A stretch of 64,000 bases of DNA from Asterias amurensis (taxonomy: Eukaryota > Echinodermata > Asteroidea > Forcipulatida > Asteriidae), in the NCBI RefSeq assembly GCF_032118995.1, contig NC_092650.1, forward strand, positions 17,603,501 through 17,667,500, in the 5' to 3' direction. The notes under the pieces are model-generated. The model was not told where the DNA came from and made no database searches. It worked only from the letters and a program-made list of their open reading frames with translations. Below are positions 26,973 through 51,803 of this stretch, in pieces. Made by a program: the position numbers and the translations under genes. The first letter of the stretch is position 1. Every line of letters begins with the position of its first letter.

Positions 26973-27086
26973 TGGTCATCTCGCCACCTAGCAAGCTCGC
27001 CACCAACACAGTCGCCCCTAACCGACTCGCCCCGGGTCGTTACAAAGTCGCCCCAGCCAATGTCGCCCCGTAGCAAAGTCGCTATA
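26973..27086. repeat. GTCGCCCC-type short repeat cluster, left
   Basis: Irregular units AAGTCGCCCC, AATGTCGCCCC and GACTCGCCCC around GGGTCGTTACAAAGTCGCCC. The same cluster occurs inverted at 55172-55300. Confidence 0.75.
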
Positions 27087-29299: not shown

Positions 29300-29780
29300 T
29301 AATTAAATTGGTGATGTGGTTCTGTTTGAGGCCAAGTTGTGGGTGGAGAATCTTGGTGAGATGTTGGCCTTGTTGTAGGTTGTTGAAACCCTGGGCGCCA
29401 CGATGGGATGGAGGGGAACATCGGATTGTGAACTTGGGTTGACCGAAGAAACAAGGGCAGGTAGATGCAGAGGTCTTTTGATGGCAGTACCTGGGTGAGC
29501 TGATGGCCTTAGACTGATGGAGAGATTGGAGCTTGTTGCTGATCTTGCATTCAATGGCCAAGATGTGTTTTTTTTGGTAGGCGTCTGTAAGTGTCAGTCG
29601 ACAGAATTTTAGTCGCCTTGTGGTCATACTTTAGTGGTAGATATGTCCACAGTGGTGTGTCGGCTGGCATGAAGTGGATGGATTGGTCTTTAGGTAGGGC
29701 TTAGATGGCAGCATTCTACTGCTTGCTTTTGGTCTTGGTAGGTTGGTGTTCTTGAGGATTAGCAGGATCTGGATATGGAC
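29300..29780 (-). mobile_element. Penelope-like retroelement fragment, minus arm (pair 1)
   Basis: Minus-strand translation gives the N-terminal part of a Penelope-like reverse transcriptase (LAIECKISNKLQSLHQSKAI, TSASTCPCFFGQPK, HLTKILHPQLGLKQNHI). Upstream in its own sense (29640-29780) it keeps leader sequence that is also present at the 46 kb locus. Broken, 3'-truncated. It faces the plus-strand copy starting at 29829. Confidence 0.7.
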
Positions 29781-29784
29781 TTGA

Positions 29785-29828
29785 GTTAGGTTTAGGGTAG
29801 AGTTATGGTTGAGTTAAGGTTAGGGTTT
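29785..29828 (+). repeat. Telomere-like repeats between Penelope-like arms (pair 1)
   Basis: Degenerate TTAGGG-type units (GTTAGGTTTAGGGTAG, GTTAAGGTTAGGGTTT) lie exactly between the two opposed arms. Confidence 0.7.
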
Positions 29829-30297
29829 GTGGTCGAGTCCACATCTGACTTATAACCTCAAGGAGACTGCGATTCTGTCGACTGACACCTACATACATTT
29901 ACCAAGAAACTCCATTCTGGCCATCGAACACAAGATCAGCAACAAGCTCCGGTCTCTCCATCAGTCTAAGGCCATCAGCTCACCCAGGTACTGCCATCTC
30001 AAGACTTCTGCATCCCCCTGCCCTCGTTTCTACGGTCAACCCAAGATTCACAATCCCAATATTCCCCTCCATCCCATCGTGGCGCCTAGGGTTTCAACAA
30101 TCTACAACATGGCCAGACATCTCACAAAGATTCTCCACTCACTACTTGGCCTCAAACAGTACCACATCACCAAAAGCCAGTTCGTCAACATCATAAATGA
30201 CATTCACCTTGGTCAAACCGACATTCTTGAGAGTTTTGACAAAGTCTCTCTCTTCACCAACATACCTAAGAAAGAAATATGTTTCATCGCCAAATAA
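29829..30297 (+). mobile_element. Penelope-like retroelement fragment, plus arm (pair 1)
   Basis: An open stretch of about 156 codons carries Penelope-type RT motifs: ILAIEHKISNKLRSLHQSKA, RFYGQPKIHNPNIPLHPIVA, NIINDIHLGQTDILESFD and SLFTNIPKKE. The RT palm and the GIY-YIG endonuclease are absent, so it is 3'-truncated and dead. The arm resembles its minus-strand partner more than the arms at the other two loci. Confidence 0.8.
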
Positions 30298-32330
30298 TGC
30301 CTACAAGTTAATCCCTCCATGACAGCCCCACAAGCCTCACTATTCAACAAGTCATCTATTTTCTCATTACCTGCGTATTTTCATAAAGCTTCTAATTGAG
30401 GGACTAGTTCTATGATACAAGTTTCTAGTAGGCTTCATTATGGTCTTCCTTGCACACACTTAAATACCTCAATGATTTCTGATACTATTTTATGTGTAGT
30501 AATTGCATTGTTTATTCTAAAAACATGATATGAGTTATTTGTAACCTATACAAATAGGGCATTCACCTTGAATAGACTTTTCAAAGGACTCAGGAAAGTA
30601 CTGAGTAAACAGTGTTAACACACATTGGTGTAAGGGTTAAACCAAAATTATCAATCTTTATCCTGGATGCAAATTTAACATCTTTTAAAATAGGAATGGT
30701 AGTTTTACATCGATCATTACTAAATTTTACCAAAGCAACAGCTGTCACTGCAGTGCTCAGAACTATAATACAGTCTTTGTTGCAATTTGTATGGGTCTCA
30801 TAAAAATGCTTTGCATATTGTTTAGCTCCTGGTAATTGTATATGAAATAAATTAAATAAATTTGATTTCTCAATAATAAGTGTAGATTCTGAAGATTACC
30901 CATGCACGCATATTTTCAGTAATTTTACAAACGGCCAAAATCCCTGGCAGCCAAAAATGTATGTTTGGAGAAACCATTTTTAAAGTTTAGAAGTTAATTT
31001 TGAAATTACTGGCTGGTACATGGAACTATCCACGGTTTAATTTTTTGACAGCTACTTGGTCCTGTTACCGTAAAAATTAATATTCAACAGTAACTTTGAT
31101 CATCTTGTTGTTGATTTGTTGAGGAACATTACATAATTGGTATGAACATAACTTGTCTGTGATCACAGATTTACATCAAACTTACTAGATCTATGGATGA
31201 TTGACACTGACAGTAGAAAACATCCTGTCACGGTGTTGATGAAACAGTGATAAAGTCGTGGACAAAATTGTGTTTGTTCGACTTGGTAGTTTTATTCGCA
31301 CTCAGCTAGGAGCAGGTGAACTATAGAACAACAAATAATAAAATAGATAATTAATATATCAATACATAAATTAAATTACTCAATAATCAAATCAAAGATA
31401 CAAGAAGGGTATTTAAATAAAACATGCAATCAGAGGTTTCCGGGAAGATTGAATAAAATGCAATCGATGGCTTTCGGAAAGATTGTACGAAAATGAACAG
31501 ACAATTGTTTCCCAAAGAAGATTAAAGAAACTAAGCAATCGGGATACTTCACAAGGATTTAAAGAAAGCAATTATTGAAGCTTGAACAAATCTACTTCTG
31601 CAATTCTATATCAAAAGATGAACAATACAATTATGGACTTTACTAAATTAACACTTACAAATTGTTACCGGGAAATTCACATCAACACTGTGGGAAACTT
31701 AACGGCGATGTACAGGGTTTACGAGAGTTTTAGGCGGCATACTGATATATAACAAAACTGTTGGGAAATACACACATATAAACTCATTTACCGCCAACCT
31801 TTCTAAATCGTATTACCATTATGCAACGTTACAAATCCTACTAATACACACAAGATAATAAAAGCAATTACAAGACAAGTATGTTGGGTACAAAAAATAG
31901 GATTTAGAAGAATAAATTTGAAGGTTTCTGTCTGAAATGTCATATTTATGAGAAGTTTATAAAACTAATTTTCCCGTTTTGAATTTGTTGCACAGTGAGC
32001 GAAAATGTGTTAAAAGTTTTCACAATTTTCTTGTGACCCAGGTGGCTGTTTGGTCTTAAGCCTATACCGGTTTGTTTATGTACATTGTAAATGGTGGATT
32101 ATATAAAGTGCTTACACTGCCAGGAGTGACAGCAACTGTTTTCTTAGCAAAAGCCAATAATGTACTGTTGCTTTAAACATAACTTTTACTTAATTGTATT
32201 TGTGTAGTGTGATGAATTGGTTATAAGGCTAGTTATTAAGTTGTTTGCTTGTGAGACAGCAGTGTATTGGACCATGGTCCCTCTGTAATATTCCTGAAAT
32301 ATAAAGAGAGTTTCATCAAAGGGTGCATAG
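30298..32330. other. AT-rich stretch, no gene
   Basis: 30298-30480 may be worn Penelope-like sequence. A scrap of family C (ACAGATTTACATCAAACTTA) lies at about 31166. The rest is unremarkable, with no coding signal. Confidence 0.4.
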
Positions 32331-32669
32331 AGGCACTGGACAATATTGGTAATTACTCAAAATAATTTTTAGCATAAAAATACCTACTTGGTAACCAGCA
32401 ATAGAGAGCTGTGGATAGTATGAAACTTTGTGAGAAACGACTTCCCCTGAAGTAACGTATAGTTGTTTAGAAAGAGGTAATTTCTCATTCAAACAATGAA
32501 ATACTTCAGCTTATATGCATTTTAAAGCACACACATTTAAGCAACAAGGGTGTTTCGATGACCAATTGAGTCCAAATTTTTCACAGGTTTGTTTTTTGAT
32601 GTATGCGTTAGGATACACCAAGTGAGAATACTGGTCTTTGCCGGTTACCAAGCGTGTCAGTACCTTTAA
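32331..32669. mobile_element. Worn family A element
   Basis: AGGCACTGGACAATATTGGT to GTGTCAGTACCTTTAAA with family A words in order (GTGAGAAACGACT, GATACACCAAGTGAGAATAC). More diverged than the copies at 7-15 kb. Confidence 0.75.
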
Positions 32670-33015
32670 ATGCTTTATACAGTGTGTATGATTATTTGAG
32701 TTTATTTTATAATTTTGAGTAGGAGTGTACATGTACTTTATAAAGCAGTATTCACATCTCTGGAAAAAATGATAGCATTCTTTAAAGTCCGATGTCTGAT
32801 CATCTTGCAATATTTGCAGTACTATGAAGGGAACATTTAACATTCATTCAATAAGCACATTCTGTTTCAACTTTGACATTGCGTCTCTATTGCTGTTCCC
32901 TATTTTAATTTCAATTTAAGTTTCACATTGTTTAAATTTTATTTTAGCTATCATATAGTGTGATTGCAGAAAACAAATCACATAATGCGTTTTATGAAGT
33001 GTGCCTACTCCTGTC
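32670..33015. other. No feature seen
   Basis: AT-rich and non-coding. Confidence 0.4.
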
Positions 33016-33294
33016 TAAGCCTGGGCGACTTGTGTGACTATATTGATTGCTATGACGAGTCAGGACAATCGCTATTCAACTACTAGGTTAATCATGCTGC
33101 CTTGAACATCACTGACATCAGTGACACAATCTATCAATCCTTTCAGCAGGAATTTTAGTATATTGCGCCTGTGGCAAACAAATGCTGCATTGCATCTTGG
33201 GAATTAAAAATTACTCGCAACTACATATAGCTCAAATTTGCAACTGTTTGTGGTGCGACTAGTCAAGTAAATGTCACTATATTGCCCAGGCTTA
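33016..33294. mobile_element. Foldback element with TAAGCCTGGGC ends
   Basis: TAAGCCTGGGC at the left and GCCCAGGCTTA at the right, with mirrored GTGACTATATT / GTCACTATATT words nearby, enclose ~280 bp of non-coding DNA. The ends may include a TA target. Confidence 0.6.
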
Positions 33295-33375
33295 CCCCTG
33301 TTGTTAATACCTCTGTTAATATGTTGCCTTTGTTAACATTTAATTTCTACATTATATTCCCATTTAAAATCTTTT

Positions 33376-34004
33376 ATTAAATACACTGGACACTACTGGT
33401 AATTACTCAAAGTAATTGTTGGCATAAAAACCTGCTTGGTAAACTTACTTGAAAATGAAGTAAATTTTGCCTTGAGTCTTGTTTTTGTCATCTGTTACTC
33501 TTCTAAAAAAAAACTCAAAAGGGAAGAATTGTTTTGTCACTTTTTCAAAATGTAATAACTGATATCAACTTTCGAGACTCAATTTTGACAGCACATTATT
33601 TACCTTGAAGATAGTCATTTGACCTACATGTAGCGTGGGGTATGCTCTATATTATTCTCAATGAATAGTTGTTGATTTTTCAGGAAAAGAATAATTGACT
33701 TTTCCTAAAATTCATGTTATGTTCACTTTTGTGCTCTCCCTCTCGTTCAGAGATAGGTAGTCTTTGTGCAGGAAAAATCATCATCTTAACTATCAGCACA
33801 AACACAATATTTGTTCCTAATGGAGATACTGGCCGAGTGGCCATGGGAGACAGAGAAAGACTTTAGGCCTGAAGCCTTTTTTCAGTTGAAGCCCAATTGA
33901 TCAAATGAGCCAATATTTTCACAGAATTGTTACTTTGTGCATGTTGGGATACACCAAGTGAGATACTGGTCTTTGACAAATACCAAAAGTGTTCAGTGCC
34001 TTTA
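33376..34004. mobile_element. Family A element with foreign insert
   Basis: TTAAATACACTGGACACTAC at the left and AAGTGTTCAGTGCCTTTAA at the right. The family sequence is interrupted between about 33445 and 33885 by AT-rich sequence without clear ends. Confidence 0.55.
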
Positions 34005-35019
34005 ACAGTTTAAGTAAAATAGGGAAAAAATAGAGACACCTAAAACAACATGTCATTTCTCTCGGTGGCCCTTAAACCACCAATCACATGAAATGCCTTC
34101 TACAAATTGTATTTCTTATGAGTTGGAACCGATATCACACAACACAAAAATGTCTGTTTGAAAATTTGTTTTTCATTGGTACTTGAGCCGTCGTAATTTA
34201 ATTTGTTGTCATAATTGGTAAAAAATGGAAGAAAAAAAATTATGCAAGTCGCCAGACACAGGAGGCCTGAAGGCCACTTCAAGGTGTGAGCTACAAATTT
34301 CTTTTTCAGAGGTCATTGCCACCTACTCCTAGGGCTGAAACAGGGTTAACCCCTTTTAAACTCCATACAGATGTAGGCTTGGCTATCATCAGTCTGAAAC
34401 CTGGCCGGTAGGGCAGAAAGCACTACGTCCCCAATTTTACGTAGCAATAAAGACATTTGTAAAGTGCATAATAGTGCAAAAAGCCTCTCTAAGTGCATAG
34501 CTAGAACAATAAAGTGTATGTCTGATTCTTCTACATGTACATTAGATGTCAATCTCCTCCCAAACAAGAAGTATAAGTAATTAAACGTATACATTATGCC
34601 CATTTTTGCTTGTGATTTATGTACCTAGTAACTTTAAATGAATGTGTCATACAATGTAGTTACAATTCAGCTGTAATGTTGTGAAAACTTAACCTTTAAT
34701 CTATTGATCCATCCATCTATCTATCTTTCTTTCTTTCTTTCTTTGAACCTGATGATCAAACAGCCAGCCACAGCGCTTTTCTCGAAATAGATAATAAGTT
34801 AAAACTGACATTGGCTCTAACGCCCGCGCTTAACTGGAAGTAAAGGTCAAATGGGGTCACACTCTGTGTAGCTTTTGTTTAAAAGTATGCACACAGCCCA
34901 TGATTTATAGATTGTACAAATCCATTGTGTGGTTTATGTGTTATGTTTTTTTATTTTATATTAAACCCTTATTTAATGTATTGCAGTGCATAATGTAGGC
35001 TTTAAATTGACCAAGACAT
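34005..35019. other. AT-rich stretch, no gene
   Basis: Contains a (TCTA/TTTC)n microsatellite at about 34708-34745. No coding or structured feature recognised. Confidence 0.4.
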
Positions 35020-35870
35020 GGGTACAAAAAATCACCCAAAATATTCAAGATGGTGTTGGAAGAGGTTTTCAAGAACACTTTACTGGATGAGAAGGAAGGG
35101 GTACATTATCGATGGAGAAATGTTATTAGATCTATGCTTTGCAGATGATGTGGCTCTATCACCTCCCCTGCTAATGTGTTAGAAGTGCAAACAAATGAAT
35201 TAAACAGCAAAAATAAAGCTTGATTTGAAGATGCACAAGGAAAAGTTCATGACCAACTTCAATACAGATGACTCAATACTGGTGAAGGACTAAGGGATCG
35301 CCCGGGTCAATGAATATAAATACTGTACCAAACAGTAAAACTGAACGAGGATTAGTCCCAAAAGGTGAAGCATCAACCAGGATTAAGACAGGAGGATGGA
35401 GCTCCTTTGGACGATACAGAGGAATATTATGTGATAGGAACATACCTACATGGTGGTATTGAGGAGAAAAATAATAGGATCAGTGTGAGCTCTCAACAAT
35501 AACTTGGAGCAGAAACATGGACAGACAACAACAAAACTGATAGAACATAAACTCTGCACACCAACAAAAGCAATGGATAGACGAGTGCTACATTTCTTTA
35601 TATAGAGACCGGATTAAATGCACAGAAACAAGAGAGAACAGAGGAAAGTATGAAAAAGCCTATATGGAGATAGGATGGACACTTTACCCTTAGAACTGAC
35701 AATATATGGACAACAAGAATCATGGATTGGCAACCAGGGAAAGAGGTACAAGTAGACAGAGAAGAAGATCACCACGGAGAGATGACATCATGCAGGAGCA
35801 ACATGAACCAGAACTGCAAGTAATAGAAATGAATGGCATTTACATGAGGAGGGACATACCCTACACTGGA
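35020..35870 (+). pseudogene. Decayed LINE reverse transcriptase, C-terminal part (RTE/CR1-like)
   Basis: Pieces in all three plus frames appear in the order expected of a LINE RT: VLEEVFKNTLLDEKEGVHY, then the FADD-type box (CFADDVALS with a shift), then thumb and tail words related to WSSFGRYRGI, NNLEQKHG, CTPTKAMDRRVLHF, NIWTTRIMDWQPGKE and GRPRRRW-type SRQRRRSPRRDD. Several stops and frame changes separate them, so it is long dead. The 5' part and the poly-A tail are not visible. The subfamily is a guess from the tail. Confidence 0.6.
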
Positions 35871-36139
35871 TGCATACACAGCCTAAGTGATGATCTTTAA
35901 AAGTACATATGTGACGTCACATACGAGGTAACTGAATAAGTTTCATCTCTGAATATCTAACTAAATGTGAAATTTCTGTGGGAGCTGCTGCTCGCTGGAT
36001 GCTTCCGGTATGGAATCGATAAAATGGAACTTGAACTGAACGACTGTTTTCGGGTACCCATATACATGTACCTAGTTAACTGCTATGGGCTTACAGTGGA
36101 CCAAATTGTTCTGGATGGTGGACTCCAAGAGTGGATAAT

Positions 36140-36548
36140 GGAATGAAGACCTGTGTGGATAATGCCAATTAATTGCATGCGTGCTTCCATTGTACAGTGT
36201 GGGCGAGGTGTTGGAGGAACTTATGATCAAGTGTTGTCTTGACAAAACTGACATGAATGTTGAACTTGTGTTGGTGATATGGTGCTATGAGGCAAATTGG
36301 GTGGAGGATCTTGGTGAGATGTCTGGCCATGTTGTAGGTTGGTGAACCCCTGGACACCACTATATCGTGGAGGGAAGCATCGAGATTGTGTATCTTGGGT
36401 TGTCTGAGGAAACGAGGACAGGGGATTCAGAGAGCTCGAGAATGCAAATTAAAATAAGGCTAAATTGGTGTGCTATGGCTTGAAACAAATGGAGCTGCTA
36501 TGTGATCTTGCATTCAATATCCGGAATGGGGTTTCTTGTTGGTGTCTG
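36140..36548 (-). mobile_element. Penelope-like fragment, minus arm (pair 2)
   Basis: The minus strand encodes Penelope-type words (SRGSPTYNMARHLTKILHP) and at the nucleotide level matches the other loci (GACAGACACCAACAAGAAAC, CCTCGTTTCCTCAGACAACC). Broken and rearranged internally. Confidence 0.65.
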
Positions 36549-36650
36549 TCCCTAACACAACTCTAACCCTCATCCTAACCCTCATCCTAACCCTAACCCT
36601 AGTTCTACCCGGGAGTTCTATCACCCTAACCCTTCATGTAACCCTAACCC
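36549..36650 (-). repeat. Telomere-like repeats between Penelope-like arms (pair 2)
   Basis: CCCTAA-type units on the plus strand (CATCCTAACCCTAACCCTAG, CACCCTAACCC, GTAACCCTAACCCC), interrupted by a short CCCGGGAGTTC segment. The strand is opposite to that at 29785 and 46222. Confidence 0.75.
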
Positions 36651-36825
36651 CCTCACTCATGACCACACTTACTGACACAAACGACTAGGCCTACAACCGA
36701 CCCTTACAGACACTAACCTTCACCTAAACACCATCTGACACTTAAAGATACCTACCAAAGGAACCCACTTCCAGATATTAAATGAAAGATCACATACCAG
36801 TTCCGGTCTCAAGCCTAGTGTTTGG
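36651..36825 (+). mobile_element. Penelope-like fragment, plus arm (pair 2)
   Basis: Starting after the telomere-like block, ACTTAAAGATACCTACCAAA and TTCCAGATATTAAATGAAAG match the 5' part of the minus arm at 36490-36540 in the opposite orientation. The arm soon ends (ACCAGTTCCGGTCTCAAGCC). Confidence 0.55.
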
Positions 36826-37086
36826 TGCAGCGCGATGTGGCAGCTTTTGCTATTGCTCTCCTGCAAATGTCTCTGTCTTCTCTGTTTTCGTACTACATTG
36901 GTTGTCTGCGTATGTGCATGTCGTTTTCAAGGTGTTTGAAGTTTGATTCGCCTGGAGAGCTGTGCCATCCCTTGTGTGGACAGGCAGGTCATTGATGTTG
37001 CAAGGTTGTAAGTGACCACCGAATCTTCAACAAAAGAAATTGGTACAGATGCTGATTGCTGATGCCAAGATCAGGATAGCATACTA
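36826..37086. other. No feature seen
   Basis: Non-coding spacer before a minisatellite. Confidence 0.35.
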
Positions 37087-37697
37087 CACATCTGACAAAT
37101 TCTGCAGAGCCAATCCCAAGGACATTGTGCATCCTCTGACAAATTCTGCAGTGCCAATCCCAAGGACATTGTGCATACTACTTTGACAAATTCTGCAGTG
37201 CCAATCCCAAGGACATACTGTATACGGCTCCTGCAAATTCTCCAGTGCCAATCCCAAGGACACTGTGCTTACGCAAACTCTCCAGTGCCAATCCTATTAG
37301 GACACTGTGCTTACGCAAACTCTTCATTGCGTATCCCAAGGACACTGTGCTTACGCAAACTCTTCATTGCGTATCCCAAGGACACTGTGCTTACGCAAAC
37401 TCTTCATTGCCAATCCCAAGGAAACTGTGCAGACTATTCAGACAAATTCTCCAGTGCCAATCCCAAGGACATTGTGCTAACGTAAACTCTCCAATGCCAA
37501 TCCCAAGGACTTCGTTTGTACACTGCTCTGACAAATTCTCTGGTGCCAATCCCAAAGACTTTGTGCGCACTACTTTGACAATGTCTGCAGTGCCATTCTT
37601 AAGGACATTGTGCTTACGCAAATTCTCTAGTGCCAATTCCAAGGACACTGTGCAGACTACTCAGACAAATGCTCCAGTGCCAATCCCAAGGAAATTG
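37087..37697 (+). repeat. 40-55 bp minisatellite, about 13 units
   Basis: Core TGCCAATCCCAAGGACA followed by TTGTGC or CTGTGCTTACG and CAAATTCTCCAG. Unit length varies between about 40 and 55 bp, and the three units at 37310-37410 are nearly identical. Frames are open through it on both strands, but unit lengths are not a fixed multiple of three, so coding is unlikely. Confidence 0.85.
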
Positions 37698-39081
37698 TAA
37701 ACCACAAATATGGTCTATTGACTAACTGTTGAATCACTCGCTGGAGATATTCTACTGTGAAAGCTGGAGATATTCTACTTTGAAAACTCATCCCCAGCAG
37801 ACAAAGATGCCCAAAAGAAGACCTTTTTTGACGAATGGATGGAGGATACTGGATGCAGGTTCGAAAATCAACAGAGAAAGATGGAAAAAACATGTCAAAG
37901 AAATCCGAGCACGCCCGACCTGATGAAGATGATGAATATCTGTACTAACTGTAAAGCTAATGTCATGAAATAATAGTTAAATGTAGTAATTAGCTTAACG
38001 CTAACTAGTTAATTTTCTTAATATTGACATAAAAAATGTCTTGATGAGAACCTTATCAATTACTTATAATAAGCTTACAAGGTATTTGCATATCAACACG
38101 CTTGATGCATTTAAATACATGTATGTTATAAATCTTTTCTGAAGTATGATCCCATGTTACCTTTACTTCTGGCCAAAACCGGGAGTTCAAATTTCAGAAT
38201 TCAAAAGTTCATGTCTCATGAACCAAACTAAATTCATCTTTGGGGGACGTTAAATCAATGCAAGCACATTGAGATAGGTATTGTGAAATGTGCGCTATAA
38301 AAGTTTTATTATTCATTTTATTTATTTAATATTACAAAAATCTGGAGAGCCATAAAAGTCCCAAATGGAAGCACCATATGTTTTTTTGAATAGGTTCACT
38401 GCGCTCCTTTTCTATTTCCTCTTCTACTTCCCCTTCTCTCTTTTCAAGGAACACCTTGCCAGTTTAGTTTTAGCTTTTGTTTAGTGTATTGTTAGGAGGC
38501 GCCTGGACCCCGGAATGGTCGACACTTCATTGATGTCAGTTGGAGTATATGTATACACACAGATCTCCTGCTGGCGGGAAAGGCGTATCCCCACACTGCG
38601 GTATGGGTACTGGCCTGGTGTTCTACATTACTCTTTCTGTTGTGTTCCTCAACCCTCTTACATGTATAGGTTATATTTTGTCCAGACTTGTGGACTTAAT
38701 TTGTGGACTTGTATAAAGATTTTAGTAGTACTGCTGGTTTAGTGGGAATGATGTTTGAGGTTATTGTAAAGCAAGGTTGAAACAGCCATGTAAAACATTA
38801 TCCTTACACATTTTGTAAATTAAGATAAATGTCAGTAGATTTGAACATTTTTAAGTTTCCAATGAGGCCCAGAGTGTTTAAAGTTCACAGATTTACAAAT
38901 AACTTACAGGGTTTACTTGAGGTAATGGTGAAAGACTTCTCCTGAAATATAATTCCATGAAATGCTTTCCTTTTTTACCTTTTTTAGAAAACATTAAAAC
39001 AATATATCAATTATCAATTATCGAGATTCTCGGATTTTTGCCATTGATTATGTTTCAGTTAAATGGTTTTCTCAATAATAA
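37698..39081. other. No gene; SINE tail remnant
   Basis: GCACATTGAGATAGGTATTG and GTGCGCTATAAAAG at about 38264-38303 are the 3' tail of the tRNA-derived SINE family seen at 40400-50840. A scrap of family C lies near 38884. Nothing else is recognised. Confidence 0.45.
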
Positions 39082-39534
39082 GTGTACATTCATAAGATTA
39101 CTGATACTGTACGCAAACATATTCATATGCTGGTCAGCATTTATTTGGTGTACGATCTTCTAAGAGAACCACATGCGGACCAAGAGAGGCCATCAGCAAA
39201 GCTTTATACTTCAGAGTCTGTAGCACATTCAAGTACATGTTCCGTCTCTTTCAACTCGGGAGAACTGGCATCTTCATCAAAAGACAGCCTTCATCTCACG
39301 TTATCGTCAATTACTGATATGCAAACATATTCATATGCTAATCTACTGGTCAGCATTCATTTGGTGTACGATCTTCTAAGAGAACAACATGCGGACCAAG
39401 AGAGGCCATCAGCAAAGCTCGATACTACAGAGTCTGTAGCACATTCAAATACATGTTTCGTCTCTTTCAACTCGCGAGAACTGCCATCTTCATCAAAAGA
39501 CGGCCATCATCTCACATTATCGTTACCATTGTGA
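39082..39534 (+). other. Open frame across two tandem ~230 bp repeats
   Basis: Two copies of a ~200-230 bp unit (39130-39290 and 39345-39520 match best) run in the same frame, so each contributes VYDLLRE(P/Q)HADQERPSAK, VAHS(S/N)TC and SSSKD words to a 150-codon open frame. Changes between the copies do not introduce stops. I do not recognise the peptide. It has no clear splice sites or partner gene, and it may be chance openness in a young duplication. Confidence 0.35.
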
Positions 39535-40011
39535 TTCTAAAAGTAAATTCATCTTGCTATTGATTAGATTGTCTATCATAGCTTTTACAGATTATGTCTT
39601 TATAGTATAGTGTTACAACTTTTTCAATGTTTCCGGCCTAATTGTTAAAGGCACTGGACACATTTGGTAGTTGTCAAAGACCAGTATTCTCACTTGGTGT
39701 ATCCCAAAACACATAGTATGCTTAAAATAACAATCAGTGAAACTTTGGGCTCAATTGGTCATCAAAGATACTTAAGAAAATAATGCAGCCATTCCCCAAT
39801 GTTTTTTACTATCAACAGCTATCCATTGCTCATTAACAATTCAGTTTTTATGCTAACAATTGTTTTGAGTAATTACCAATAGTGTCCAGTGCCTTTAAGA
39901 ATCTTGTTTGTAGTTCTGTTTATTGCTGCAGTTTAAACTCTGTTTTGTTTAAATTTGTCATTCTGTAGTTTTGTTTAATCAAGGGAGGTTACCAATATAG
40001 AGGACAATCAT

Positions 40012-40140
40012 AATGTCCATAACCTACCACCACTTTTCCATTCATTATGAAATAATTTCAAATTGAATTAATCAAATGAGATACTCCTTGAGGTACTCAT
40101 AAGTTAAAAAGTGGTGGGCGGATACTGATACGGAAATTAT
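40012..40140. mobile_element. CCACCACTTTT hairpin in unit 1
   Basis: CCATAACCTACCACCACTTT faces AAAGTGGTGGGCGGATAC. It is a relative of 27891-28022; equivalents lie at about 41095-41225 and 42260-42375, and a truncated one at 43398. Confidence 0.65.
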
Positions 40141-40399
40141 TCATATCAGTGTACAGTGTATGTTTCCTTATTTCTTTCTAATTTAGTGTACTTTGTCAAA
40201 CATCTATCCAGTACAATCCCAGTTTGCTCAGTTCACAATTAAATTATTTTAACTGGAAAGTGTTTTGGTAATTGAAAGATAATATGTTTTAAGCTGTGTT
40301 TTGTTGGACATCATGTCTCCTTTTTTTTTGCAGTTGAGTGTAGATTCACAAAAATAATCTACACCATCATCAATAAAGTTTATTTCATTTGAAATTAAA

Positions 40400-40665
40400 G
40401 AGCGTCGAATTCAAGTTCTGGTGGTTAATCACCGGAGTGTGGGTTCGAATCTGGTCATGGCACTTGTGTTCACCCAGGGGTATAAATGGGTACCTGTGAG
40501 GTTTAGGGGTTGAAAAACCACTAGCACCATACTGCAGCTCAGGGCTGTATACTCCCGGGGAGCTGAGAAGGATTACAGGAATTATATTGGCCCAATGTTG
40601 AGGCCACTTATGCAAAGCGCATTGATACAGTTATTGTAAACTGCGCTAAACACTAAAAACTAGTT
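40400..40665 (+). mobile_element. tRNA-derived SINE (unit 1)
   Basis: The Pol III B box is GGGTTCGAATC at 40441-40451. The body reads GGGTATAAATGGGTACCTGT and the tail GCGCATTGATACAGTTATTG. The A box is worn at this copy. Confidence 0.75.
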
Positions 40666-41540
40666 TGTATTAAAGGAACAGACTGAGCAAACTTGTACTG
40701 GCTAATACAAAATATAGATGAATTTGAGAACATTTTTTTTAGGCCTGATGAATTGTAAAGGCACTTGGACACGTTTGGTAAGTTAAAAAAATAGTATTCT
40801 CACTTGGTGTACGGTATATCTCAAAATATGCCCAAAATAACAAAAGGGTAAATTTTGGCTCAATTGGTCATCGAAGCTGCAAGAAAATAAAGGAGCCGTT
40901 TCTCCCAATGTTTTTTTAAACTATCAACAGGGAAAACAAGTAAGTTTTTATGCTAACAATTATTTGAGTAATTACCAATAATATCCAGTGCCTTTAAGGT
41001 TTCTGTTTAGGGTTCTGTATTGGTACAGTTTACTCTGTTAAAACTTGTCACACTTTAATTTTGTTTAATCAAGGGAGTTTTAAAATATAGAGGATAACGT
41101 CCATATCCTATCACCACTTTTTCATTCATAATCAGAGATAATTTTGTATTTAATTTACTCAAATGAGATACTCCTTGAGGTACACATTTAGGTGATAAAG
41201 TGGTGGTAGGATATGGAAATCTTTCCAAGATAACAGTGTACAGTGTATGTTGCCTTAATTGTGTCTAATTTTGAGTACTTTGTCAAGCATTATCTATCCA
41301 GTACAATGCCAGTTTGCTCAGCTCACCATTAAACTATTTTAAATCAAAATGATTTGGTACATCGAAAGATAACTATTTTAAGCTGTGTCTTGTTGGACAG
41401 TGATTATATTTTTTTAATCTTTTAATTTGGGAAGAGGGCTATTTTTAAGTTGAATTATTCACTTTAGTCTGTAACAAATTGACAGTTGAGTGTAGATTAC
41501 CTACACTTTCATCAGTATAGTTTATTTAATTTAAAATTGA

Positions 41541-41838
41541 AGAAGCTTGTCTTGGTAAGAGCATCGAATTCAAGTTCTGGTGGTTAATCATCGGAGTGTG
41601 GGTTCAAATCTTATCATGGCACTTGTGTTCACACAGGGGTATAAATGGTCACCTGTGTGAGGGTAGGGGTTGAAAAGCCACTTGCACCATACTGCAGCTC
41701 ATAGGGCTGTATACTCCAGAGAGAGCTGAGAAAGCTTAAAGGAATGTTATTGGCCCAATGACGAGGCCACTAATGTGAATCACATTGATATGGTTATTGT
41801 AAAATGCGCTAAACACTATAAGAACTAGTTATTATTAA
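41541..41838 (+). mobile_element. tRNA-derived SINE (unit 2)
   Basis: A-box-like TTGGTAAGAGC and B box GGGTTCAAATC, with the same body and tail as the other copies. Confidence 0.75.
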
Positions 41839-42696
41839 AGGAACAGACTGAGCAAACTTGTACTGGCTAATACCAAAAATAGATTAATTTGAGAACATTG
41901 TTTAGGCCTGATGAATTGTAAGGCACTGGATACAGTTGGTAATTGTGAAAGACAAGTATTCTCACTTGGTGTATCCCAAAATGTGCATTTCCCATTACAA
42001 ACAGTGAAAATTTGGGCTCAATGGTTCATCAAAAGTGCATGAAAAGAATGGAGCAATTTCTTGCAATGTTTTTTTTTCCAACTATCAACAGGGAGAAAGG
42101 TCAGTTTTTATGGTACCAATTGTTTGGATTATTTACCAAGTATGTCCAGTGCCTTTAAGATTTTTGTATGTGGTTCTGTTTATTGCTACAGTTTATACTC
42201 TGTTAAAATTTGTCAATCTGTAATTTTGTTTTAATAAGGGAGGTTTAAAATATAGAGGATAATGTCCATATCCAACCACCACTTTTTCATTCATTATGAG
42301 ATATTTTAGATTGATTTTACTCAAATGAGATACTCCATGTGGTAAAAATAAGTGAAAAAAAGTGGTGGCAGGATATCCAAGATTACAGTGTACAGTGTAA
42401 ATGTTTCCTTATTTTTATCTAATTTTGTGTACTTTGTCAAACATTATTGAGTACAATGCCAATTTGCTCAGTTTACAATTAAACTATTTTAAATGGAAAG
42501 TGTTTTGGTATATCGAAAGATAACATGTTTTCATCTGTGTTTTGTATGACAATGATCATGTTACCTTTTAATGGGTGAAGACGGCTATTTATCAAGTTGA
42601 TTTATTCACGTCAGTTTGTAATTTACAGCTGAGTGTAGATTCACTATAATAATCTACACTTTCATCAAAATAGTTTATTCATTTATAATTAAAAAA

Positions 42697-42970
42697 GGGT
42701 GTCGTGGTTAAGAGCGTTGAATTCAAGTTCTGGTGGTTAATCATCGGAATGTGGGTTCGAATCTGGTCATGGTCATTCTTGTATAATGGATACTTTTGAG
42801 GGTATGGGTTGAAAAGCCACTTGCACTATGCTCCAGCTCAGGGCCGTCCATAGAGAGCCGAGAAAGATTAAAGGAATGTTATACTTGGCCCAAATGATGT
42901 GGGCACTAATGTAAAGCGCATTGATACGGTTATTGTAAACTGTGCTTAACACTAAAAACTAGTTATTGTT
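42697..42970 (+). mobile_element. tRNA-derived SINE (unit 3)
   Basis: A-box-like CGTGGTTAAGAGCG and B box GGGTTCGAATC; the tail AAAGCGCATTGATACGGTTA is well kept. Confidence 0.78.
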
Positions 42971-43809
42971 AAAGGAACAGACTGAGCAAACTTGTACTGG
43001 CTAATGCAAAATATAGATTGATTTGAGATTTATTTTAGTCCTAATGAATTGTAAGGCACTGGACACGTTTGGTAATCTAATTGTGAAAGACCAATATTCT
43101 CACTTTGTGTATCCTCAAAAATGCATAAAATAACAACTGGTGAAAATTTGGGCTCAGTTGGTCATCGAAAGTGCAAGAAAATAATAAGCCGTTTCTACCA
43201 ATGTTTCTTTATACTACCAACAGGGAAAATAAGTCAGTTTTTATGCTACCAGTTATTTTGAGTAATTACCTAGAATGTCCAGTGCCTTTAAGGTTTTTGT
43301 TTGTGGTTCTGTGTTGGCACAGTTTACTCTGTTGAGCTTGTCACTCTGTAGGCCTAATTCTGTTTAATCAAGGGAGTTTTAAAATATAGATAGGATAATG
43401 TCCGTATCCTACCACCACTATTTCATTCATTATGAATTAATTTTAAATTGAATTTACTCAAATGAGAAATTCCAAGATTACAGTGTACAGTACAGTGTAA
43501 ATGTATGTTTCCTTGTTTTTATCTAATTCTGTGTACTTTATCAAACATTATTGAGTACAGTGCCAGTTTGCTCGGTTTACAATTCAACTATTTTAAATGG
43601 AAAGTTTTTCGGTATACCAGTATCGGAAGATAACGTGTTTTAGCTGTGTTTTAATGGACAAGGATCATGTTATCTTTTAATTTGGGAAGACGGCCATTTT
43701 CAAGTTGAACAATTCACTTTAGTCTGTAACGAATTGCAGTTGAGTGTAGATTCACAAAAATAATCTACACTTTCATCAATATAGTTTATTTCATTTATAA
43801 AATTAAAGG

Positions 43810-43925
43810 AAGGTTGTCATGGTCAAGAGTATTGAATTCAAGTTGTGGTGGTTAATCATCGGAATGTGGGTTCAAATCTGGTCATGGCACTTGTGTACAC
43901 CCAGGGATATTTTATGGGTCTGTGG
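43810..43925 (+). mobile_element. tRNA-derived SINE, truncated (unit 4)
   Basis: tRNA head with B box GGGTTCAAATC. The element stops after CACCCAGGGATATTTTATGG, where the tandem array ends. Confidence 0.65.
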
Positions 43926-45689
43926 GTAAGATGGACGCGTACGACCCGCTGGGATATTATTCTGTAAAAGCATTGTGCACGACGCCATTATTTGGCAGTT
44001 TTTGATTTTTATTTCAAGAGGTTTACTTTCTCTATACCATAACAGTTTGTTGGATACCTATCTTTCTGAAATGAATAAATCAGTAACAATTACATACCGG
44101 TATGTAATTGGTTTTTTTTAAGTTTTATTTTTAGAAAAGTAATAGTTTGAAATCAATAGAAGATATTCTGGGAGAAGGAGTGGGCCTACATGTTGTGTAT
44201 TTGTAAAACCTGAAATGAAATTTGAATTGCAGTACAGAACTTTATTTAAATTATTTGTGTTACTTTGTAATTTCCTATTCTTATTTTTCGACATTGGGTT
44301 TGCAATCAAGTGCTCCAGTATAGGTGAACCAGTTGAAGTAGAACTAATTAAACAAGTGACTCGTGACTCTGACTCTGACTTGACCCAAATGATTCGTGAC
44401 TCGGACTCAGACTCAAACAGGTGACTCAGGACTTGGACTCCGATTTTGACATAAGTGACTCGACTGCAACACTGCTCAATTGTATCTAATTTTATCTAAT
44501 TTTTTGTCTTGGCAGTTTGACAATTGGCAATTGAACTATTTTAACTGGAAAGTGTTTATGTAAATCGAAAGATAACATGTTTATGCATCCAATGTTTGCA
44601 CGTTAGCTGGGTAGTGGCACATTGAATCTCGCACATTTTAGGCCAACACTGAAAGAAAATTTATACTCCGGCAGTTCTTGCCCTCCTTTTTGGCATACAA
44701 AACCTAACTTAGTCTCATCATCTACTTAGGTTTTTCTTGTTTTGTTTTTCTTCGCCATAACCAACAACTTTTCCTCTTGTGTCTCTTTTCTAAAATGCTC
44801 TGGGACCGTTATGTTTTTACTGCCCTCTCTACTCTACCAGTTGTTCCTGGCTACACTGCTTGCAGGGTTGTCAAATGCACCCTGGTATAACCATGGAGCT
44901 GTAGCTCCATGGTATAACTCACTCCACTACAACAATCTTGACTTCTCTGTCAGGGCATGCCAAAGACTATCTATCTCTGCAAAGCCCTGTATGAACTTTT
45001 TGTCATAGGACGCAAGGCCAAGAATTCTTCAAACTCTTGGGGACAGGTTTACCTTCTGTAGTCTATACAGAAACACCTTTGTACAACATTGGCAGCCCAC
45101 AGGCTATACGAGTGCTCTATCGCACCTCTTTTCTTTATGCCAACAACCTGTCTTTGTATCTCTCCTAAGGCAGTCAGAGTCCCATCTTGGTCTCTGTTTT
45201 ACTGGCCTTGCATCTCCAGTGGTTATGTGGTGTTTCATAACATCCGTTCTACCTACATGTATATCTTGACCCCCACGTCTTTGAACTCTACTAAACACAT
45301 CCTGACTGGAACAGCTTACTCCTTTTGTACATTGTCTGTACTTCTTGTAAATGAGTCTAGTAAATGCAAAGACAAACCCTGCTTTGGCTCACTAGCCTCA
45401 TTTGCCTTTTTTTTAATTGCATCATGTTCCACAGTGGAAATTAAACCCATGGTGATAGTTTTTCGAGCCACTACGGAATCATCTGGTTCCCTACTCTACA
45501 AGTGATCTGGCTAATACTACTCTCTTCCTTTATCTAACACTCTAGCCTATTCTCTTGTGATAAATGTCTGTCCTCATGCTCTACTGAGCCACTCTGTCCT
45601 CCTGGCTTGTTTTGTTTAACTCTATAAACAATCCAAGCACAGCGGTCTTCATTTCTTTCTCTATTTCTCAGAGAATTGAGTAGATCCAA
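43926..45689. other. No gene identified; two sharp palindromes
   Basis: CAATTACATACC/GGTATGTAATTG at 44087-44110 is a perfect 24 bp palindrome. At about 44884-44916 CCATGGAGCT and AGCTCCATGG form a hairpin with TATA-containing flanks. Direct GACTCGGACTC-type words occur at 44360-44420. Frames at 44742-45008 and 45089-45505 are open but match no family I know, and other frames nearby are full of stops. Confidence 0.45.
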
Positions 45690-46221
45690 TGGCAGCCTCA
45701 GCGGTTTGCTCATTTGAGTGGTCCCTCCATTGGAAGCTTGATGAAGATATACAAGTAATGAGAACAACTGTCATGGGGTGAACAACCTGTAGGCGTCGTT
45801 TTGTGATGAGGCATGCTTGTTTCGGGGTATGTTGGTGAAGAGACAACGTGTACATTGAAACTTACAACAATGTCCGAATGACTGAGGTAGATGGTGACGA
45901 AATGACTTCGGTTGGTGATGTGATGCTTTGTGAGGCAGCTTGAGACTAATGGAGAGATAGGAGCTGGTTGGGGATCTTGTGCTCGATGGCCTGGATAGGG
46001 TTTCTTGGTAGTTGTCTTTAAGTGTCGGTTGAGAGAATCTCAGTCACCTTGTTGTTCCTAGTCAGAGGTGGACATGACCACAGTGGCGTTACCCTTGTTG
46101 GCTGACGTGTAGATGGATTGGTCTTTAGGTATAGCTCAGATGGCGGCATTTTATTGCTTGCGTGTGTTAGGTTTTGGTAGCTTAGAATTCTTGATGGTTT
46201 GAAGGATCTGGATTCGGACTT
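45690..46221 (-). mobile_element. Penelope-like fragment, minus arm (pair 3)
   Basis: The minus-strand sequence matches the 29.3 kb arm, including the leader (AGCAATAAAATGCCGCCATC, AAAGACCAATCCATCTACAC) and RT start. Both this arm and its partner lack the same internal block (from the SSPRYCH to the QYH part of pair 1). Broken. Confidence 0.7.
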
Positions 46222-46277
46222 AGTTAGGATTAGGTTTAGCATTAGGATTAGGGTTAGGGTTAGGGTTAGGGTAGCTT
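46222..46277 (+). repeat. Telomere-like repeats between Penelope-like arms (pair 3)
   Basis: Four clean TTAGGG units (46249-46272) are preceded by degenerate TTAGGA/TTTAGCA units, placed between the opposed arms. Confidence 0.85.
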
Positions 46278-46324
46278 TGATAGTGGATGTAAGTTGTTCA
46301 GGTGTTGTAGGAACTGATGAAGTG

Positions 46325-46604
46325 TTGTCCAGGCCATTGAACACAAGATCACCAACCAGCTCCGATCTCTATATCAGTCTCAAGCTGCCTCCCAAAGCAT
46401 CACATCACCAACCGAAGTCGGTTCGTCAACATCATTAAGGGCAGTCACCTCAGTCAATTGGACATTGTTGTAAGTTTTGATGTAGTCTCTCTCTTCACCA
46501 ACATACCCTCAAAAGAAGCATGCCTGATCACCAAACAACACCAACAAGCTGATCCTTCCATGACAAAACACACAAGCCTCAATCCTCAACAAGTCAACAC
46601 CACT
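46325..46604 (+). mobile_element. Penelope-like fragment, plus arm (pair 3)
   Basis: Words include CAGGCCATTGAACACAAGAT, the RT box VSFDVVSLFTNIPSKEAC (about 46463-46520) and the same internal gap as the minus arm. It ends where the Ty3/Gypsy-like scrap begins. Confidence 0.75.
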
Positions 46605-46865
46605 TTCAGTCTCTCTTTCATTTCTTTAACTGTGTTACCTAAGAAATTTAAGTCCTCTACATAGGTCAGCAGGATTTCCCACTGCAACCCTCTCATGACC
46701 TTTTCCATTAGTCTCTTAAAAGTAGCTGGGTCATTACAGAGCCCCAAATGCATACATTTCCATATGTATGTCCATTGCTCTCAACAAATACGGGCCTCAT
46801 ACAGATTCATTATCTAAAGCAACCTGCTAATATCCCATGCCTAATCTAGTGTTGAGAACCACTCA
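46605..46865 (-). mobile_element. Fossil Ty3/Gypsy-type retrotransposon scrap
   Basis: The minus-strand sequence resembles the palm region of a Ty3/Gypsy-type reverse transcriptase. It is a short, broken, old piece of about 260 bp without LTRs or other domains, wedged between a Penelope-like arm and the 36 bp minisatellite. Confidence 0.55.
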
Positions 46866-46884
46866 CACAAGGGTAAAGAAATGT

Positions 46885-49800
46885 CTCACTTTTGGGTTGC
46901 GCCGTCAACAACATAAATATCTCTTTCTTTGGCTGTGCTGTCAACCACAGAAATATCTCACTCTTTGGTTGCACTGTAAAAAGTACATATTTGGTTGTCA
47001 ACCACAAAAATTTCCATACTTTTGGTTGGCCCATCAACCACGAGACTTCTAATTACTTTGGTTGCACCACGTCGTCAACCACAGAAATTTCTATATCTTT
47101 GGTTGCGCTGTCGACCACAGAAATTTCTATATCTTTGGTTGCACCGTCAACCAAAGAAATGTCTCACTTTTTGGTTGTCATCGTCAACCACAGAAATGTC
47201 TCACTCATTGGTTGTCGCATCAACCACAGAAATGTCTTATTCTTTGGTTGCCCTTACAACCACAGAAATGTCTCACTCTTTTGTTGCCCTGTCAACCACA
47301 GACATGTGTCACTCTTTGGTTGGGCTGTCAATCTCAGAAAGTTCTATCTCTTAAGTTGTGCCGTCAACCACAGAAATGTATTGCTCTTTGGTTGCTGCTT
47401 CAACCACAGAAATGTCTCACTCATTGGTTGCCCTGTAAACCACTGAAATGTCTCGCTCTTTGGTTGCCTTGTCAATCACACAAATGTCTCACTACTTGAT
47501 TGCTCGGTCAACCACAGAAATTTCTATCTCTTTGGTTGCGCTGACTACCACAGAAATTTATCCCTCTTTGGTTGCCCTATCAACCATACAAATGTATCAC
47601 TCTTTGGTTGTCGCCGTCAACCACAGAAATGTCTTATTCTTTGGTTGGCCTGTCAACCACAGAATATATCGCTCTTTGGTTGCCCTGTCAACCACAGAAA
47701 TGTCTCACTCTTTGGTTACGTCATCAACCATACAAATGTATCACTCTTCGGTTGTCGCCGTCAACCACAGAAATGTCTTACACTTTGGTTTCGCAGTCAA
47801 CCACATAAAGGTGTCTTTCTTAAGTTGTGCCATCAGCCACAGAAATGTATCGCTCTTTGGTGGCCCTGTCAACCACAGAAATGGTTGTGCCAATCAACCG
47901 GAGAAATGTTTCATTCTTTGGTCATCCACAGAAATGCCTTTCTTTTTGGTTGCGTAGTCAACCACAGAAGTTTCTGTATCTTAAGTTGTGCGGTTAGCCA
48001 CATAAATGTATCACTCTTTGGTTGCCATGTCAACCTTGGAAACTTCTCTCTTTGGTTGAGCTGTCAACCACAGAAATGTCTCGCTCTTTGGTTGCCCCAC
48101 AACCACAGAAATGTCTCGCTCTGTGGTTGCCCCACAACCACAGAAATGTGTCACTCTTTGGTTACGTGGTCAACCATAGAAATGTATCGCTCTTTGGTTG
48201 CGCCCTCAACCACAGAAATTTCTGTCTCTTTGGCTGCGCTGACAACCACAGCAATGTATCGCTCTTTGGTTGCCTTATCAACCATAGAAATGTCTCGCTC
48301 TCTGGTTGCGCCGTCAACCACATAAATGTATTGCTCTTTGGTTGCGCCGTCAACCACATAAATGTCTCGCTCTCTGGTTGCCTTGTCAACCACATAAATG
48401 TATCGCTCTTTGGTTGCGCCGTCAACCACATAAATGTCTCGCTCTCTGGTTGCGCCATCAACCACATAAATGTATTGCTCTTTGGTTGCGCCGTCAACCA
48501 CATAAATGTCTCGCTCTCTGGTTGCGCCGTCAACCACATAAATGTCTCGCTCTTTGGTTGACTTATCAACCACATAAATGTCTCGCTCTCTGGTTGCGCC
48601 GTCAACCACATAAATGTATTGCTCTTTGGTTGCGCCGTCAACCACATAAATGTCTCGCTCTCTGGTTGCCCTGTCAACCACATAAATGTATCGCTCTTTG
48701 GTTGCGCCGTCAACCACATAAATGTCTCGCTCTATGGTTACGCCGTCAACCACATAAATGTATTTGCTCTTTGGTTGCGCCATCAACCACATAAATGTCT
48801 TGCTCTCTGGTTGCGCCGTCAACCACATAAATGTATCGCTCTTTGGTTGCGCCATCAACCACATAAATGTCTCGCTCTCTGGTTGCGCCGTCAACCACAT
48901 AAATGTCTCGCTCTCTGGTTGCGCCGTCAACCACATAAATGTATTGCTCTCTGGTTGCGCCGTCAACCACATAAATGTCTCGCTCTCTGGTTGCGCCGTC
49001 AACCACATGAATGTATTGCTCTGTGGTTGCCATGTCAATCACAGAAATTTTTATCTGTTCGATTGTGTCGTCAACCACGGGAATGTCTCATTCTTTGGTT
49101 GCCCTGTCAACCACAGAAATGTCTCACTCCTTGGCTACTTGGTCAACCATAGAAATGTATCGCTTTTTGGTTGCGCCCTCAACCACAGAAATGTCTTTCT
49201 CTTTGGCTGCGCTGACAACCACAGAAATATCTCACTCTTTGGTTGCGCCCTCAACCACAGAAATTTCTATCTCTTTGGCTGCGCTGACAACCACAGAAAT
49301 ATCTCACTCTTTGGTTGCCCTGTCAACCATAGAAATGTCTCACTCTTTGATTTCACTCTTTGGTTGCGTCATCAACCACAGAAATGTATCGCTCTTTGGT
49401 TGCGCCCTCAACCACAGAAATTTCTATCTGTTTGGCTGCGCTGACAACCACAGATATTTCTATCTCTTTGGTTGTGCCGTCAACCACAGTAATGTCTCAC
49501 TCTTTGGCTACACGGTCAACCATAGAAATGTATCGCTCTTTGGTTGCCCTATCAACCATAGAAAAATCTCGCTCTTTGGTTGCCATGTGTCAACCACAGA
49601 AACATCTTTCTCTTTGGTTGCGCCGTCAACCTCAGAAATTTCTATCTCTTGGGTTTTGCCGTCAATTCAACCACAGAAATGTCTCACTCTATTTCTATCC
49701 CTTTGGGCCGTCAATTCAACCACAGAAATGTCTCACTCTATTTCTATCCCTTTGGGCTGCCCTGTCAACCACAGAAACGTCTCACTCTATTGTTACTCTG

Positions 49801-51799: not shown

Positions 51800-51803
51800 T
51801 GTG

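Follow-up and report, generated by a model that had tools for sequence, protein, structure and literature searches.

The three pairs of Penelope-like element (PLE) fragments which flank telomere-like repeats in the analysed 64-kb stretch of Asterias amurensis DNA, referred to here as the window, are constituents of a single repeat unit of about 28 kb (about 27.0 kb to 55.3 kb of the window) which a genome search locates at at least 12 dispersed loci, a lower bound since scoring was limited to 40 candidates for DNA and 150 for protein. We consider it probable that ordinary PLE palindromes broke at their centres, were at some time patched there with telomeric repeats and were subsequently copied passively within this unit; the window would then represent one decayed passenger copy. 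Such an origin corrects the tempting reading of these sites as telomere-targeting retroelements at interior positions and implies that repeats can take telomere motifs along as passengers when they are copied through a genome. The coordinates of all features are compiled in Table 1.

Table 1. Features of the repeat unit and of the three PLE pairs (window coordinates).
Feature	Position	Strand	Basis and remarks
Large dispersed repeat unit	26979-55295 (edges approximate)	.	Sequence homology, local alignments; holds all three pairs
Left terminal inverted repeat-like stretch, GTCGCCCC sub-repeats	27010-27068	+	54/60 identical to reverse complement of 55236-55295
Right terminal inverted repeat-like stretch, GGGGCGAC sub-repeats	55236-55295	-	Matches left stretch inverted
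Pair 1 left arm, 5'-truncated PLE reverse-transcriptase fragment	29308-29783	-	PLE protein match, arm alignment
Pair 1 centre, TTAGGG-like tract, 44 bp	29784-29827	+	Sequence read; two perfect TTAGGG
Pair 1 right arm, PLE reverse-transcriptase fragment	29828-30420	+	PLE protein match
Pair 2 left arm, PLE fragment	36265-36541	-	PLE protein match at 36274-36420
Pair 2 centre, degenerate CCCTAA tract (TTAGGG on - strand)	36550-36650	-	Sequence read, motif scan
Pair 2 right arm, short weak PLE remnant	36742-36815 (start as read from the sequence)	+	Alignment to left arm
Pair 3 left arm, PLE fragment with internal gap	45682-46222	-	PLE protein match, arm alignment
Pair 3 centre, TTAGGG tract, four perfect repeats	46223-46272	+	Sequence read, motif scan
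Pair 3 right arm, PLE fragment with similar internal gap	46328-46598	+	PLE protein match, arm alignment

A tblastn search with the protein of L082, a relative with a long open frame, reveals a PLE-type reverse transcriptase in pair 1 (E 3e-39), pair 3 (8e-16) and pair 2 (1e-9). The matches within the window span only about amino acids 235 to 487 of the element, the GIY-YIG region lying outside, and Pfam returns no reverse-transcriptase hit for the four arm frames scanned, of which pairs 1 and 3 supply two each, while L082 itself gives RVT_1. Protein matches in pair 1 lie at 29851-30321 on the plus strand and within 29745-29307 on the minus strand; its arms (29308-29628 and 29851-30173) agree at 87% over 324 nt, and mirrored similarity beyond the PLE is present in two further segments, 28783-28901/30460-30579 and 28657-28722/30686-30750, each at 80%. 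The arms of pair 3 (45769-45995 and 46328-46565) share 80% over 240 nt, with a 106-nt stretch at 90%, and both lack PLE sequence after about amino acid 331, an edge read by eye in the right arm; according to the protein matches the left arm resumes at amino acid 416 and the right arm at 389. In pair 2 the mirrored right arm amounts to just 61 aligned nt (36758-36815) at 79%, and the tract runs on the strand opposite to that of pairs 1 and 3. The original prediction of head-to-head PLE fragments around a telomere motif, each pair looking like an inverted duplication and not two random insertions, holds for pair 1, owing to its arms and mirrored non-PLE flanks, and for pair 3, owing to its arms and shared internal gap, and is weak for pair 2.

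The motif in the centres is indeed that of the genome's own telomeres, as contig 1 starts with CCCTAA repeats. Allowing up to two mismatches, (TTAGGG)2 is matched 16 times in the window compared with 3.97 expected, and none of 100 shuffles reaches 16 or more; 15 of these matches fall into the three pair centres, the remaining one being located at 40497. With the window counted and presence judged by eye, a TTAGGG- or CCCTAA-like tract is found in all dispersed copies extracted of pair 1 (12/12), pair 2 (8/8) and pair 3 (7/7). Perfect hexamers in the pair 1 tract, again counted by eye, number three to four in the four most divergent copies and zero to two in the others, as expected from the decay of a regular array; the contig 14 copy contains none. 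A genome search with the PLE-tract junction pattern gives 163 matches, its reversed control two. The 100 junctions listed of these 163 all fall in dispersed unit copies or in array regions, between 6.8 and 23.5 Mb on contig 2 and between 10.1 and 11.6 Mb on contig 3, i.e. in contig interiors. The window itself starts from 17.6 Mb on a contig of 28.6 Mb, away from the chromosome ends. Since the palindrome-tract arrangement is inherited with the larger unit, it gives no evidence of a formerly subtelomeric position of the locus.

Homology common to the unit copies extends from about 27086 to at least 55160; past 55290 the matches listed contain none apart from common repeats. All three pairs are present in identical order at at least five of the 12 loci, two pairs are listed at five and one pair at two. 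Six flank stretches, compared with 6 to 11 loci each, show 71.5-97.3% identity within the matches, which often cover the whole stretch. Some copies are without parts of the flanks: in this comparison L059 has no counterpart to 34900-36200, and L026 and L027 have none to 46620-46880. Parts of the right half of the unit are also matched by C16 (8.91 Mb) and C9 (8.70 Mb), which are outside the 12 loci counted. The recurrence of the arrangement three times in 17 kb is therefore correct as to the sites, but their independence was overstated, since shared order and flanks assign all of them to one duplicated unit. Three independent insertions or inverted duplications within this 17-kb stretch would agree with the junction positions and tract strand, which differ among the pairs, yet they are contradicted by the dispersed copies with their shared flanks and identical pair order, and we regard such local events as very improbable. 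Three independent telomeric insertions are ruled out, as the pairs are common to the dispersed copies, while the pairs may have originated independently before dispersal.

The relative age of palindrome and dispersal can be read from pair 1. A tree of 24 arms from 12 loci sets the 12 right arms apart from their 12 left counterparts (support 0.979), and at none of the 12 loci are the two arms sisters; mean identity is 89.7% among left arms, 87.6% among right arms and 84.0% between left and right arm of one locus. Because the arms separate so cleanly across loci, the pair 1 palindrome is older than the dispersal, and the same tree rules out arm-to-arm conversion after it. Set against arms taken from different pairs (74-80% across matches of at least 100 nt), the arms within one pair are clearly more alike in pair 1, slightly so in pair 3 and not so in pair 2. 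This suggests that the pairs may have formed separately after the PLE-tract junction existed or that the arms converted each other before dispersal.

Two relatives, about 65-75% alike to the window pairs in matches of at least 100 nt, form PLE palindromes devoid of a telomeric tract, a statement for which the junction pattern search provides the additional basis. L082 has head-to-head inverted arms of 1054 nt and 445 nt which are 100% identical as rounded, and no TTAGGG is found there. The relative L083, part of a 6.74-kb array, has head-to-head arms of 1.2 kb at 85% with PLE meeting PLE directly, likewise with no TTAGGG at the junction; it may constitute an independent palindrome. As TTAGGG is absent from L082 and from the L083 junction, we reject the repeats as part of a leader of the PLE itself. 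At the place where pair 3 reads GGACTTAGTTAGG, L083 reads GGACTTGGTTGG, a possible priming site. The C-terminal piece of L082, the one long open-frame copy read for an endonuclease, scores 25.8 bits for GIY-YIG (cut-off 22.6), the whole-protein scan having listed RVT_1 only; the piece of L083 scanned gives no GIY-YIG. PLEs feature hammerhead ribozymes in their terminal repeats, and none is detected at Rfam gathering scores in the window, L082, L083, L001 and L021; as all of these are fragments or partial copies, the negative result bears little on complete elements.

These relatives bear directly on the supposition that the pairs derive from an endonuclease-lacking, telomere-associated PLE, of which Athena and Coprina are named examples. 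Its 5'-truncated copies would have been added at exposed chromosome ends, with telomerase capping the 5' ends prior to end fusion or an inward move. Truncated 5' ends do adjoin telomere repeats as in endonuclease-deficient PLEs (PMC3846280), and the tract strand fits one arm per pair, which is true of any head-to-head pair. However, the long open-frame relative carries GIY-YIG, both head-to-head relatives are tract-free, and the junctions listed (100 of 163) all belong to a single repeat family and sit within contig interiors; the supposition thus finds no support, and we judge a telomeric PLE origin rather implausible. Growth of the tract by replication slippage from a resident GTTAGG-like word, without any link to telomeres, appears unlikely to us. 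The PLE antisense does read GGTTGG where pairs 1 and 3 have their junction, and pair 3 varies in length by 6 bp among copies (gaps of 99, 105 and 111; 86 in the contig 7 copy), a variation equally in keeping with the break repair that we favour. Yet slippage has to contend with a motif identical to the telomere hexamer of the genome, with the same motif on the other strand and at a different PLE position in pair 2, and with the loss, on either side of the pair 1 tract, of PLE sequence present in L083.

Break and repair of ordinary palindromes, which we favour, would proceed as follows. Head-to-head PLE palindromes would have arisen in ancestral sequence, palindrome formation being a known habit of these elements. 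The head-to-head arrangement is described as the most frequent inverted one among PLEs (PMC3846280). Their centres would have broken with the loss of some sequence, and the ends would have been rejoined with a short telomeric run, perhaps added by telomerase that primed on a GTTGG/GTTAGG end; the repair would thus have left an interstitial telomeric sequence. Breaks exposing in-register nucleotides receive telomeric repeats, as described in PMC2246262. The patched structure would then have been incorporated into the 28-kb unit, which would have spread to its present loci, a shortened and circularly permuted form entering tandem arrays. The head-to-head arms, the tract, the unit, its dispersal after palindrome 1 had formed and the tract-free relatives are observed. 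What we infer is the breaking and patching of the centres, the part played by telomerase and the way in which the unit moves, the repair step from relatives only, since no tract-free copy of the same palindrome (empty site) was seen and just the more distant L082 and L083 were found.

Parts of the unit are in fact also present in tandem arrays, e.g. as an 8.4-kb repeat on contig 3 (10.1-12.1 Mb), all of them in chromosome interiors. Among 22 array copies, which as best search matches are a non-random sample, mean identity is 99.62% and the minimum 99.33%. The 8.4-kb array unit gives just a weak tRNA-like hit in Rfam, and an RNA gene of a kind described there is rejected for it. It is conceivable, albeit doubtful, that head-to-head PLE palindromes, in part those with telomeric centres, serve as building blocks for arrays with units of about 6.5, 6.7 and 8.4 kb, that these arrays form a single block or a few blocks in the interior of at least eight chromosomes and that they are perhaps the starfish centromeres, the dispersed 28-kb units being their sources or escapees. 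If centromeric, these arrays would be a concrete candidate for echinoderm centromere DNA made of retroelement palindromes.

As to its ends, the unit possesses a right-end sub-repeat block of about 55167-55295 in total, and similar sub-repeats are present at the right ends of two other unit copies; the left inverted stretch, however, was not found in the 200 bp read at the left margin of two further copies. Pfam detects nothing above the curated cut-off in 16 unit frames, which represent part of those of at least 100 amino acids and include at least four PLE arm frames, the frames of a 36-bp minisatellite and a few others being left out. The dispersed unit with its inverted sub-repeat ends in the window thereby resembles large non-autonomous terminal-inverted-repeat transposons, but differs in that no transposase is recognised in the frames scanned, that the inverted ends are seen in the window copy, the left ends of two others being different, and that a target-site duplication is not established. 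Short interstitial telomeric sequences from break repair, described for mammals (PMC2246262 and PMC7215372), likewise consist of a short run of the species' own hexamer at a lossy junction, with possible microhomology and apparent decay with age; here, in contrast, the run is sited at the centre of a PLE palindrome, and no empty allele is seen. The endonuclease-deficient telomeric PLEs of bdelloid type (PMC3846280) share with the starfish case a 5'-truncated PLE beside telomere repeats, whereas the latter is interstitial and palindromic, has a relative with endonuclease and shows its listed junctions (100 of 163) in one repeat family. Closest in arrangement are the GIY-YIG Penelope families of Adineta vaga from the same source, which also form head-to-head inverted copies and combine, like L082, RVT_1 with GIY-YIG; the starfish copies differ from them as small fragments with a telomeric centre which have been amplified within a larger unit.

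In the window (contig 3, 17603501–17667500), two reverse-transcriptase fragments of a Penelope-like element (PLE) face away from a TTAGGG/CCCTAA-like tract at three places. Pairs 1 and 3 are head-to-head pairs with telomere-like centres, as originally predicted; of pair 2, which belongs to this kind too, a weak remnant is left. The two arms are 87% identical over 324 nt in pair 1 and 80% identical over 240 nt in pair 3; in pair 2 the mirrored sequence amounts to 61 aligned nt only. The protein of a long open-frame PLE encoded in this genome aligns to the two arms of pair 1 and of pair 3 on opposite strands, pointing outwards from each centre, and also to the pair 2 left arm. With up to two mismatches, (TTAGGG)2 is found 16 times in the window compared to 3.97 expected matches, a number reached in 0 of 100 shuffles, and 15 of these 16 matches fall inside the three pair centres. 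TTAGGG is the telomere motif of this genome, CCCTAA repeats occupying the first 546 bases of contig 1.

That the pairs represent inverted duplications is supported by the mirrored similarity of pair 1, which extends beyond the PLE, and by an internal gap present in both arms of pair 3. The two copies of pair 1 differ in their 5' ends, the left one being, by our reading, longer on that side by about 120 bp, so that the centre is asymmetrical. In pairs 1 and 3 the tract sets in at the identical PLE point; that of pair 2 lies on the other strand and at a different point. We count one or two origins rather than three.

The pairs are part of a dispersed unit of about 28 kb. Genome searches (491,506,623 bases, 23 contigs) with pair 1, 2 or 3 as query each gave the identical set of loci. 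Among the 12 dispersed loci, window included, at least five harbour all three pairs in conserved order, pair counts per locus being lower bounds. Beyond the palindromes, the flanks show 71.5–97.3% identity among loci where they match, and three flank comparisons gave no match. Past 55.29 kb, only common short repeats, which filled most of the scored places, appear among the matches listed. In the window the unit is bordered by inverted GGGGCGAC-type repeats (54/60 identical). Two other copies carry such repeats at the right end, but in neither do the 200 bp retrieved from the left end contain any; the unit may therefore be a terminal-inverted-repeat transposon, though this is unproven. A Pfam scan of 16 unit frames gave no family above cut-off.

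Features of the window and related loci (window coordinates in nt unless kb or a contig is stated)
Feature	Location	Remark
Pair 1	29.3–30.4 kb	
Pair 2	36.3–36.8 kb	
Pair 3	45.7–46.6 kb	
Unit homology	about 27.09 to at least 55.16 kb	
Inverted GGGGCGAC sub-repeats	26979–27086; 55167–55295	possibly terminal inverted repeats
Minisatellite, 36 bp	47073–50166	inside unit, >60 copies
Near-palindromic short repeats	26016–26406 (~390 bp); 51435–51800 (~365 bp)	MITE-like, many genome sites
Satellite, 189 bp	59917–64000	reaches window end
C-type lectin-like gene cluster	128–766; 6232–6924	similar by sequence to scanned genes
C-type lectin-like gene cluster	10945–11901 (-); 17469–18245 (-)	frames 10945–11898, 17469–18242: Lectin_C + PAN_1 (Pfam scan, two frames)
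Loci with all three pairs	contig 3 (three, incl. window); contig 2; contig 9	
Loci with two of three pairs (n=5)	contig 14; contig 2, 23.5 Mb; contig 1, 27.6 Mb; contig 6, 8.6 Mb; contig 7, 20.2 Mb	
Loci with pair 1 only (n=2)	contig 7, 13.8 Mb; contig 1, 23.7 Mb	lower bound
Array L081, matches	contig 3, 10.1–12.1 Mb	
L081 in window order	30.9–32.5, 34.7, 36.2–38.4, 39.1–39.5, 50.9–52.5, then 28.3–30.8 kb	
Tandem steps of 6.54 and 8.4 kb	contig 2, 21.77–22.58 Mb	
Histone 3' UTR stem-loop	L082 4168–4214 (contig 14, about 7.449 Mb)	Rfam, 35.6 bits, gathering score 34, E 3.6e-7

A tree built from the 24 pair-1 arms of the 12 loci sets the 12 right arms apart from the 12 left arms with a support of 0.979, and at none of the 12 loci are the two arms sisters. 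Mean identity is 89.7% among left arms, 87.6% among right arms and 84.0% between both arms within a locus. Since left and right arms separate across loci, the palindrome of pair 1 is older than the spread of the unit. Outside the arrays the tract position, examined by eye, is conserved in all copies of pair 1 (12/12), pair 3 (7/7) and pair 2 (8/8); the tract is also found in the array loci L081 and L084 (contig 6). Perfect hexamers in pair 1, likewise counted by eye, number 3–4 in the four most divergent copies and 0–2 in the others, which fits a regular array that decays. The contig 14 copy has zero perfect TTAGGG.

L081 is a tandem unit of 8,392 bp which corresponds to the window unit, shortened and circularly permuted; 22 search-selected array copies of 3.6 kb share a mean identity of 99.62%. 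A pattern search for the PLE–tract junction gave 163 matches, 100 of them listed, compared to 2 in the control, and this junction recurs at ~6.54-kb steps on contig 2 (21.77–22.51 Mb). By our subtraction of match positions, a further family of ~6.74-kb repeats exists on contigs 6, 7, 8, 13, 14 and 16. L083, the one such unit read, carries a longer PLE and is one of two contig 8 units whose inverted partner lies, according to the match listing, ~500 bp off. The array loci in which a palindrome or its centre was read are L081, L083 and L084. Large PLE-related tandem arrays sit in chromosome interiors. On our boldest reading, the arrays, which form one or a few interior clusters on the chromosomes where they were seen, are candidate centromeric repeats.

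Two head-to-head relatives read, L082 and L083, are free of the tract. L082 contains a PLE open frame of 826 aa, stop to stop; it may be incomplete, judging from frames of up to 898 aa in other copies. Its second copy is inverted, the arms (1054 and 445 nt) being 100% identical as rounded, and TTAGGG is absent from the 4.5 kb read. About 300 bp 3' of its frame stop lies the histone stem-loop match, so that the element's 3' end is possibly histone-like; none of the papers listed by one literature search contains the term histone stem-loop. In L083, arms of 1.2 kb (85% identical) are in direct contact, and TTAGGG is absent at their junction. At the start point of the pairs 1/3 tract, L083 reads GGACTTGGTTGG and pair 3 GGACTTAGTTAGG; pair 1 lacks PLE sequence between the alignment ends 1123 and 1439 of L083.

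Palindrome centres are fragile. For this reason, and on account of the inverted-copy habit of PLEs and the known insertion of telomeric repeats at breaks, we propose that a PLE palindrome would have broken at its centre and lost sequence there, that its ends would have been rejoined with telomeric repeats, and that the repaired palindrome would then have been carried as a passenger. This last part, movement within the larger repeat, is well supported and appears highly probable; breakage and rejoining of the centre is somewhat favoured. Against it, none of the copies of this palindrome that were seen is free of the tract. According to PMC3846280, head-to-head is the commonest inverted PLE arrangement observed, explained by self-priming. 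PMC2246262 reports that breaks can acquire telomeric repeats, that a deletion accompanies about half of these insertions while many show nucleotides in register, and that the repeats decay later.

Slippage as origin of the tract remains a rival to such a repair, as does an endonuclease-lacking PLE, a kind brought up in the original prediction; endonuclease-deficient PLEs are described with telomere repeats at truncated 5' ends (PMC3846280). The GIY-YIG domain, proposed as a check on intact copies, was found on scanning the C-terminal piece of L082, whereas the whole-protein scan lists RVT_1 and not this domain. Against the proposed reading, arms of different pairs are 74–80% identical in matches of at least 100 nt, a likeness exceeded by the arms of pair 1 and, slightly, of pair 3. 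This excess, which the arms of pair 2 do not show, would fit either separate formation of the palindromes after duplication of a PLE–tract junction or early conversion between arms.

The combination of these ingredients, amplified in a 28-kb unit and in large arrays, was not found among the papers listed by searches of one open-access library; each ingredient alone is known.
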